The position numbers were made by a program, and so were the translations under genes. A stretch of DNA of 49,750 nt, taken from NCBI GenBank assembly GCA_018057825.1, contig JAGPCY010000053.1, positions 1-49,750 on the forward strand. Direction: 5' to 3'. Below, one piece after another: positions 8,775 to 41,318 of the stretch. The stretch's first letter is position 1, and each line of letters opens with the position of its first letter. Origin of the DNA: Kofleriaceae bacterium (GTDB taxonomy: Bacteria > Myxococcota_A > Polyangia > Haliangiales > Haliangiaceae). Below the pieces are notes generated by a model, which made no database searches, was not told the DNA's origin, and was given only the letters and a program-made list of their open reading frames with translations.

Positions 8775-8780
8775 GCGCTC

Positions 8781-9028
8781 GAGGCGGCGGCGGAGGAGGA
8801 GGAGGAGGCCGAGGCCGAGGCCGAGGCAGAGGCGGAGGCCGAGGCGGAGACGGAGACCGAGACCGAGGCGGAGGAGGAGACCGAGACCGAGGCCGAGACC
8901 GAGACCGAGACCGAGTCCGAGTCCGAGTCCGAGGCAGAGGCGGAGGAGGAGGCCGAGACCGAGGCCGAGGCGGAGACCGAGGCGGAGGTGGAGGCTGGGA
9001 TGGAGACCGAGGTTGAGACCGAGACCCC
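8781..9028. repeat. GARNCN hexanucleotide array 2 (about 41 units)
   Basis: Begins 6 bp after the peptidase stop codon (8772-8774) and ends about 57 bp before the cyclase start. Units on the + strand are GAGGCC, GAGGCA, GAGGCG, GAGACG, GAGACC, GAGTCC, GAGGAG and GAGGTG, all in register. GAG is almost invariant and the second triplet varies mainly at its first and third base. The array shares the reading frame of the preceding gene beyond its TAG. Confidence 0.95.
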
Positions 9029-20848: not shown

Positions 20849-20869
20849 GTCGCGGCGGTGGGAGGGGAC

Positions 20870-21068
<199 letters not shown>

Positions 21069-39605: not shown

Positions 39606-40055
39606 TCAGCGCGCCGCGAAGTTGCCCGACACCAACGCCGCCACCGACACCGCAGCCAGGTAACACGCCAGACCACCGGCGACGAACAGCGCGGCGATCG
39701 ACACCAGGCGCTGCTGGCGGTTGCGGCGCTCGAGCACCACCACCGCCGTCTCGATCAGGTCGTCGCGCAGCTCCTGACTGACCCAGCGCAGCTTGGTGAT
39801 CGTGCGGATACAGACGACCAGCCCGATCATCACGAGCGCGATACCGGCGACCATCAGCATCGCCGCCGTCGAGCCTGACCGGATCATGTGGGCGCCCGAG
39901 AAGCCGGTCACCGTGATCGTCAGGCCACACAGGCCGATCAAGACCTGGGCATAGGTCTTCACCGTCGCGATCTGGTTCGACAGGAACTGCACGTACTGCG
40001 CCGGCTGGTCGACGAACAGGTCGCGCAGGCGGCGGGCCTCCTCGCGGGTGTCCAT
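39606..40055 (-). CDS. Small three-helix membrane protein
   Basis: 149 residues with a charged amphipathic N-terminus (EEARRLRDLFVDQPAQYVQFLSNQ) and three hydrophobic helices at about 37-56, 64-84 and 118-142. It begins 3 bp after the stop of the peroxiredoxin gene, so the two share a transcript. I do not recognise a family. Its job may relate to the peroxiredoxin only through co-expression. Confidence 0.7.
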   Translation of the reverse strand: MDTREEARRLRDLFVDQPAQYVQFLSNQIATVKTYAQVLIGLCGLTITVTGFSGAHMIRSGSTAAMLMVAGIALVMIGLVVCIRTITKLRWVSQELRDDLIETAVVVLERRNRQQRLVSIAALFVAGGLACYLAAVSVAALVSGNFAAR

Positions 40056-40058
40056 CGG

Positions 40059-40745
40059 TCAGCGCGTGGGCTTCTTGGCCGCGGGCTTCTTGGCGGCAGG
40101 CGCGGGCTTCTTGGCCGCGGGCTTCTTGGCGGCGGGCGCGGGCTTCTTGGCCGCGGGCTTCTTGGCGGCAGGTGCGGGCTTCTTCGCCGCCGGGGCCGCG
40201 GGCTTCTTCGCCGCCGGAGCCGCGGCCTTCGGCTTCGCCGCCGGGGCCGGAGTCGTCGTCGCCACCGCCGCCGCGCCACCGACCAGCGCCTGGGCCGCCG
40301 CCAGCACCTCCTCGGCGTGGCCCTTCACCGACACCTTTGGCCACACCTGGGCCACCTTGCCGTCGCGATCGATCAAGACCGTCGACCGGATGATCCCCGT
40401 CACCGGCTTGCCGTACATGAGCTTCTCGCCCCACGCGCCGTAGGCGGTGAGCATCGCGCCGTCGGCATCGGTCAGGAGCGGGAACGAGAGCCGGTACTTG
40501 TCGCGGAACTTGCAGTGCGACGCGATCGAGTCCTTGCTCACCCCGAAGACCTTGGCGCCGAGCGTGGCGAAGCCCGGCATCGCGTCGCGAAAGTCCTGGG
40601 CCTCGATCGTGCAGCCCGGCGTGTTGTCGCGCGGGTAGAAGTAGATGACGACGGGGCTCCCGCGCAGGGAGGCGAGGGAGACGTCGCCGCCGTCAGACGA
40701 GGGCAGGGTGAACGCGGGCGCGGGTTTTCCGACGGGGAGGGCCAT
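40059..40745 (-). CDS. bcp: Bcp-type peroxiredoxin with histone-H1-like Lys/Ala/Pro tail
   Basis: A 228-residue thiol peroxidase. Residues 1-155 are a complete Bcp/PrxQ domain with FTLPSSDGG, FYPRDNTPGC (peroxidatic Cys45), FPLLTDADG and STVLIDRDGKV. The resolving Cys common five residues later is Gln50; the only other cysteine is Cys78 (ASHCKF), so the mechanism may be 1-Cys or use an unusual partner. Residues 164-228 are a repeat tail of AAKKPA and PAAKK units with about 20 lysines, like histone H1 tails and myxobacterial H1-like proteins. This would let the enzyme bind DNA or other polyanions. The start at 40745 has TAGCGT 6 nt upstream. Confidence 0.9.
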   Translation of the reverse strand: MALPVGKPAPAFTLPSSDGGDVSLASLRGSPVVIYFYPRDNTPGCTIEAQDFRDAMPGFATLGAKVFGVSKDSIASHCKFRDKYRLSFPLLTDADGAMLTAYGAWGEKLMYGKPVTGIIRSTVLIDRDGKVAQVWPKVSVKGHAEEVLAAAQALVGGAAAVATTTPAPAAKPKAAAPAAKKPAAPAAKKPAPAAKKPAAKKPAPAAKKPAAKKPAPAAKKPAAKKPTR

Positions 40746-40803: not shown

Positions 40804-41160
40804 ATGCGATCGCTCCGCCGCGCCGTGGCCGCCCTCGTGCTGGGCCTCGTCGCCTGCGGTCACCCCGCCGCCGGCCCGGCCTGGCCCAAGAGCGCTGGCA
40901 CGGTCGCGGTCACCGATCCCGCCGAGGACGGTGGCGAGAGCCTCGAGCCCCGCGGCCCCGCGGAGGCCGCGGCCGCCCTCGAAGAAGCACCCGATCGCAC
41001 GCTCACCGAGTTGCTCGACGAGCCCGCCGCGCCGTCGGCCGCCGCCCCGGTCGACACGCCGCCGACCACCGATCCGCCCGTCGTCCCGGTCGGCACCGTC
41101 GAGACCATCGAGATCGAGATCCAGGACATCACCCTCGAGCCTGACCTCGTCACGCCCTGA
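40804..41160 (+). CDS. Small acidic Pro-rich lipoprotein
   Basis: 118 residues. The lipobox GLVAC at 14-18 marks it as a lipoprotein. The mature part is disordered-looking, rich in Ala, Pro, Glu and Asp, and ends in an acidic beta-like stretch (TVETIEIEIQDITLEPDL). No family is recognised. It is divergent from the peroxiredoxin gene and its stop codon is followed within 10 bp by hexamer array 4. Confidence 0.68.
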   Translation: MRSLRRAVAALVLGLVACGHPAAGPAWPKSAGTVAVTDPAEDGGESLEPRGPAEAAAALEEAPDRTLTELLDEPAAPSAAAPVDTPPTTDPPVVPVGTVETIEIEIQDITLEPDLVTP

Positions 41161-41170
41161 AGGGCCAGTC

Positions 41171-41318
41171 GGCCTCGGCCTCAGTCTCGGCCTCGGCCTC
41201 GGCCTCGGTCTCGGCCTCGGTCTCGGTCTCGGCCTCGGTCTCGGTCTCAGTCTCGGTCTCGGTCTCGGCCTCGGTCTCGGCCTCGGTCTCGGTCTCAGTC
41301 TCGGTCTCCGCCTCGGCG
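41171..41318. repeat. GARNCN hexanucleotide array 4 (about 25 units)
   Basis: On the minus strand the units are GAGACC, GAGACT, GAGGCC and GAGGCG in exact period 6. It fills the whole gap between two convergent genes, ending 10 bp from the stop of the + gene (41158-41160) and 10 bp from the stop of the - gene (41329-41331). It is thus the only array flanked by two stop codons. Confidence 0.95.

Follow-up and report, generated by a model that had tools for sequence, protein, structure and literature searches.

A PrxQ/Bcp-type peroxiredoxin with a histone H1-like lysine/alanine/proline tail in a Kofleriaceae bacterium: a candidate nucleoid-tethered peroxidase

In the analyzed window, a stretch of 49,750 nucleotides of a Kofleriaceae contig, a gene of the PrxQ/Bcp peroxiredoxin family lies on the minus strand, directly upstream of a gene for a small predicted membrane protein. 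The bcp open reading frame has a coding-like GC content at third codon positions (GC3 = 0.94). The locus is composed of the following features:

40059..40745, minus strand (read from 40745 to 40059): PrxQ/Bcp peroxiredoxin with a C-terminal Lys/Ala/Pro tail, ATG start, 228 aa
40278..40745, minus strand: PrxQ/Bcp catalytic domain, residues 1–156, thioredoxin fold (Pfam AhpC-TSA and Redoxin, AlphaFold2)
40611..40613, minus strand: codon of Cys45, the peroxidatic cysteine, in PRDNTPGC (alignment of 156 relatives)
40596..40598, minus strand: codon of Gln50, at the site of the resolving cysteine of E. coli-type Bcp (translation, alignment)
40512..40514, minus strand: codon of Cys78, the putative resolving cysteine (mutual exclusivity with Cys50, modeled helix)
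40062..40277, minus strand: Lys/Ala/Pro tail, residues 157–228, disordered (composition, pLDDT)
40064..40190, minus strand: 36-bp tandem array, distal part of the tail (Tandem Repeats Finder, 3.5 copies, 94% matches)
39606..40055, minus strand: predicted 149-aa membrane protein, its start codon 3 bp past the bcp stop

The catalytic domain was recognized by Pfam as AhpC-TSA (PF00578; residues 5–133, E 2e-38, 131 bits against a cut-off of 26), and the NCBIfam PrxQ match covers residues 10–152. The best-scoring NCBIfam families are both of the PrxQ/Bcp type, and both scores fall below the equivalog cut-offs (PRK09437.1, 131.8 bits against 140; NF053650, 156.9 bits against 260), which places the protein outside the named equivalogs, as a divergent representative of the broader family. 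AlphaFold2 modeling gave a confident thioredoxin fold for residues 1–156, with most of the domain at a pLDDT of ~97. Among solved structures, a Burkholderia Bcp (5enu) and the PrxQ of Xanthomonas campestris come closest, with 46–49% identity and a target-normalised TM-score of ~0.9. The downstream membrane protein matched no Pfam family above cut-off. Its co-transcription with bcp is possible; a conserved operon of the two genes was ruled out, since relatives have a different sequence downstream.

Within the domain, the Pxxx(T/S)xxC motif corresponds to P38-T42-C45 and is accompanied by R120; Thr42, Cys45, and Arg120 are kept in all 156 aligned relatives. The CxxxxC motif of E. coli-type Bcp, in which the resolving cysteine stands five residues past the peroxidatic one, is lacking, and residue 50 is indeed glutamine, as the preliminary description had read it. 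The altered chemistry which that description suggested for the missing second cysteine does not follow, as it had overlooked Cys78, located in helix 74–84 of the AlphaFold2 model, the next helix past the active-site helix. Among the 156 relatives, Cys50 occurs in 45, Cys78 in 56, neither in 55, and the two are never combined in one protein (Fisher P = 2e-11); within the order, most orthologues retain Cys78. This pattern suggests that Cys78 takes the role of Cys50 and is very probably the resolving cysteine, forming a predicted disulfide, and, given its conservation and its exclusivity with Cys50, the enzyme is most likely an ordinary atypical 2-Cys PrxQ. The PrxQ of Xanthomonas campestris (PDB 5iiz and others) is comparable in fold, active site, and sequence (46% identity over the domain), and it likewise has no cysteine at position 50 and a second cysteine in the next helix; the mutants C48S and C84S in the PDB mark its cysteine pair. 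In contrast to that enzyme, Cys78 is placed three residues, approximately one helical turn, ahead of the Cys84 position, and a basic tail of 72 aa is added. In the DR_1209-type BCPs of Deinococcus, ~38 residues separate the two cysteines (PMC8945050).

The tail is composed of 31 Ala, 18 Lys, 16 Pro, and 1 Arg among its 72 residues, with no Asp or Glu, and carries a net charge of +18.7 versus +1.7 for the whole domain; every lysine codon in it is AAG. The 65 residues with about 20 Lys that had been described after a full Bcp domain come close to these values. The AlphaFold2 model assigns the tail a pLDDT of ~50–69 and no secondary structure, and by its composition, being long, disordered, and free of acidic residues, it is an H1-like Lys/Ala/Pro tail. 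A Pfam search with the tail alone returned no family up to E 10, including the histone H1-like HC2; the low complexity of basic tails causes family databases to pass over them. The repeat exceeds what chance would produce: the strict pattern KKPAAKKP was detected at only three loci in the 8.9-Mb genome (G000), which belongs to the phylum Myxococcota, and reversed-pattern controls gave zero. Alternative frames of the array would encode Arg/Ser/Pro (Arg/Pro), Glu/Ala/Arg (Glu/Gly), or Leu/Gly repeats, and the repeated use of the lysine frame among these would argue for selection on charge. Antisense and overlapping reading frames within the repeat were dismissed as shadow frames produced by the GC-rich array. 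A sequencing frameshift or assembly artefact as the origin of the tail was ruled out by its presence in frame in six genomes of the genus.

The variability of the tail was assessed across the order, where an orthologue was found in 25 of 35 genomes. The preliminary description had set beforehand that absence of the tail from close relatives would count against its reading; all six genomes of the genus with an orthologue carry it, in the same lysine frame and with different repeat units, and its occurrence beyond the genus is patchy. Altogether, a tail is present in nine of the order's 25 orthologues, namely those of the six genus members, of G009 from a neighbouring genus, and of two members of the sister genus g5; the remaining g5 orthologues, the majority in that genus, stop a few residues past the fold. 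The tails of the genus are 38–85 aa long, with a charge of ~+6 to +26, 21–37% Lys/Arg, 0–2 acidic residues, and no aromatic ones. In the rest of the class, at least seven Lys-rich tails were detected (G352, G296, G241, G119, G383, G046, and G385), a lower bound, as only long matches were opened. In a tree of 76 orthologues, 17 of them tailed, the distribution corresponds to nine gain/loss changes, at least five of which well-supported branches make unavoidable; one supported tailed clade (97/85) unites the genus with G009. One Bcp orthologue (L201, G402:C266) has a long C-terminal tail of the opposite charge, the acidic EPDEPEPDES...DEPADEDEP.

A contig scan, which sampled far relatives only, yielded one tailed case, the Bcp of Comamonas sp. 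KCTC 72670 (L076), with a 179-aa Lys/Ala/Pro/Ser-rich tail and the CxxxxC motif; this tail is apparently an independent gain in Pseudomonadota. In the plasmid collection, no place covered 80% of the full-length query, and no tailed homologue was seen.

Other antioxidant enzymes served as controls. At 21 loci of the second Bcp paralogue, whose sequence shows the CxxxxC motif in nearly all cases that could be read, no Lys/Ala/Pro tail was present, a few of these alignments being broken. Related genomes likewise gave no tailed protein among 30 of the AhpC/Prx type, which have the 1-cysPrx_C domain, or among 30 Fe-SODs; in this comparison the tail is specific to the orthologue described here. A script flag on 21 of the 30 AhpC-type controls was a threshold artefact: on inspection these were ordinary folded C-termini with no Lys/Ala/Pro repeat. 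Antioxidant enzymes of the group are thus not generally tailed.

Lys/Ala/Pro tails occur on further proteins of the same genome. A DNA pattern search for two KK[AP] units revealed approximately seven tailed genes including bcp, a lower bound, as topoisomerase I was missed by the pattern. These genes encode a DNA-alkylation-repair protein (PF08713, AlkD-like), a VOC/glyoxalase-fold protein, a small basic protein, a protein of no known role on contig C8, and a zinc-ribbon protein without a Pfam match; one gene is cut by a contig end. The topoisomerase I of this genome ends in KAPAKAKAPAKAKAPAK...AKKRA, and that of G003 has a similar end. The alkylation-repair protein is also tailed in G002 and G003, in the latter across a contig break. 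In sister species, N-terminal Lys/Ala/Pro versions were found in ParB-like proteins of G005 (L257, G005:C80) and G002 (L261, G002:C6), labeled by sequence resemblance with no Pfam match, and in a TfoX_N protein of G003 (L249, G003:C48), whose match is below the Pfam cut-off. The tail carriers include several DNA enzymes as well as proteins without a known DNA role.

Two conserved tailed proteins were noted. One is small, begins MAAAEKVHKAGITRNNDMMYYVKNGDIWQVPRKKPG..., and was picked up, with its Lys/Ala/Pro tail, in five of six genomes to which the pattern was applied (L282 = G000:C67, L252, L259, L264, and L273); it has no Pfam or NCBIfam match and is a candidate uncharacterised histone-like protein. 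A zinc-ribbon-like protein with an acidic start, paired cysteines, and a long Lys/Ala/Pro tail occurs in three genus members (L278 = G000:C44, L248, and L262), again with no Pfam match. Contigs of this assembly also end inside lysine-tail repeats (L283 = G000:C74:1- and L281 = G000:C41:1-), so that counts of tailed genes from draft genomes are probably too low.

DNA binding by Bcp proteins has precedents. The Bcp of Coxiella burnetii reportedly binds DNA, and we know of no H1-like tail in that protein or in DNA-protecting BCPs. PMC8945050, citing the original work, describes Bcp proteins that bind DNA in vitro and protect it, and the core idea of a DNA-bound Bcp is thus not new. Literature text searches, with limited coverage of subscription papers, yielded no account of an H1-like tail on a Bcp, and the preliminary description knew of none either; what appears new here is the tail on a Bcp, not the binding of DNA by one.

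Tails of this composition are known from other proteins. The C-terminal tails of Pseudomonas AlgP and PhaF are disordered Lys/Pro/Ala repeats, which bind DNA and anchor cargo at the nucleoid or at granules, as is the case for the KPAA-repeat tails of AlgP (PMC9239181); the N-terminal domains of both proteins, however, are unrelated to peroxiredoxins, and the repeat is KPAA versus AAKKPA here. Lys-rich low-complexity regions are a mark of DNA-binding proteins, and actinobacterial topoisomerase I and HU bind DNA non-specifically through low-complexity Lys/Ala/Pro repeats (PMC6821194). The reports on Chlamydia Hc2 (PMC2848022) and Bordetella BpH1 (PMC7398561) likewise describe Lys/Ala/Pro repeats, often of variable copy number, and non-specific DNA binding. 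In all four, the repeats are found on canonical DNA proteins and not on a peroxidase.

Among peroxidases, yeast Dot5 (nTPx) has a homologous domain (PDB 2a4v, E 4e-26 against the family profile) and is dedicated to the chromosome compartment. Unlike the protein described here, it is a eukaryotic nuclear protein whose targeting is not known to rely on a Lys/Ala/Pro repeat at the C-terminus, and it carries its basic extension at the N-terminus. Together with Tsa1, this nuclear PrxQ relative suppresses gross chromosomal rearrangements (PMC2688748).

We hypothesize that the tail is a non-specific DNA tether that keeps PrxQ on the nucleoid, which we regard as somewhat probable. In such a mechanism, Cys45 would attack the peroxide, Cys78 would resolve the intermediate, and thioredoxin would recycle the enzyme, as in atypical 2-Cys PrxQ. 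The disordered, strongly positive tail would bind DNA by charge with no sequence preference, in the manner of histone H1-type tails, and by holding the peroxidase on the nucleoid it could allow H2O2 and organic peroxides to be removed beside the chromosome. The domain, the catalytic residues, the tail with its conservation and repeated gain, and its presence on DNA enzymes of the genome are observed. DNA binding, nucleoid location, and a benefit to the genome are the parts of this reading that we infer, the first two of them because Lys-rich regions mark DNA binders, AlgP tails bind DNA, and the nuclear Dot5 acts with Tsa1 against chromosomal rearrangements. A nucleoid-tethered peroxidase is favoured because the composition is kept genus-wide, the tail was gained repeatedly, the control enzymes are tail-less, and DNA enzymes of the same genome are tailed. 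The tail is dispensable, since most g5 orthologues and many others are tail-less, and because H2O2 diffuses fast, a single tethered peroxidase may bring little advantage.

The main rival to a DNA tether is a general polyanion tether whose true partner is polyphosphate granules or RNA/ribosomes, the peroxidase being stored there or protecting translation or starvation granules, which we consider rather unlikely. AlgP, whose KPAA-repeat tail is of similar composition, sits on polyphosphate granules and spaces them via this tail (PMC9239181), and the chlamydial lysine-pentamer protein Hc2 is a strong RNA binder as well (PMC2848022). Within the genome, tails of an identical type on the VOC protein, the C8 protein, and the small basic protein, none with a known DNA role, suggest that the tail may serve any polyanion; however, topoisomerase I and AlkD-like repair enzymes here bear the same tail type, and AlgP peptides bind DNA too, so that the two readings overlap.

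Less probable still is repeat slippage in a GC-rich genome, with a tail that is nearly neutral or only alters solubility or oligomer state. The near-perfect 36-bp array, the different repeat units of sister species, the acidic tail of L201, and the lack of a tail in most orthologues of the sister genus are consistent with slippage, whereas the lysine frame used by independent tails despite other possible frames, the persistence of the tail throughout the genus with hardly any acidic or aromatic residues, and the absence of such tails from controls in related genomes argue against it. Very improbable is an extracytoplasmic role for the tail as a surface module or polysaccharide binder, comparable to mycobacterial HBHA, whose heparin-binding tail has a similar Lys/Ala/Pro make-up; this adhesin reading was rejected for want of a signal peptide, for which the PrxQ fold, beginning within the first residues, leaves no room, and PrxQ depends on cytosolic thioredoxin.

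If the tail does tether PrxQ to the nucleoid, tailed and tail-less orthologues in sister species constitute a natural experiment, and the question of whether a DNA-placed or a free cytosolic peroxidase better protects the genome becomes directly testable. Such an enzyme would parallel, in bacteria, the nuclear Dot5 of yeast and would give reason to seek basic tails on other damage-control enzymes. A broader proposal, which we put forward tentatively and regard as doubtful, is that myxobacteria have recurrently evolved a set of nucleoid-anchored housekeeping enzymes in which an exchangeable H1-like tail would bring peroxide removal by PrxQ, alkylation repair by the AlkD-like protein, the VOC protein with its detoxification fold, and topoisomerase I to the chromosome; if so, this set would represent local genome protection built by tail acquisition.

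Apart from the tail array, the window contains four long hexanucleotide/12-mer arrays of the CGAGGC/CCGAGA type, at positions 575–838, 8780–8988, 20869–21068, and 41169–41316. Judged by codon-position GC, most of them are apparently intergenic, as for the array between the convergent genes at 41160 and 41329. On contig C7 (L049), a similar array adjoins the gene for a type IV pilus-type ATPase, and the element thus looks like a genome-wide satellite.
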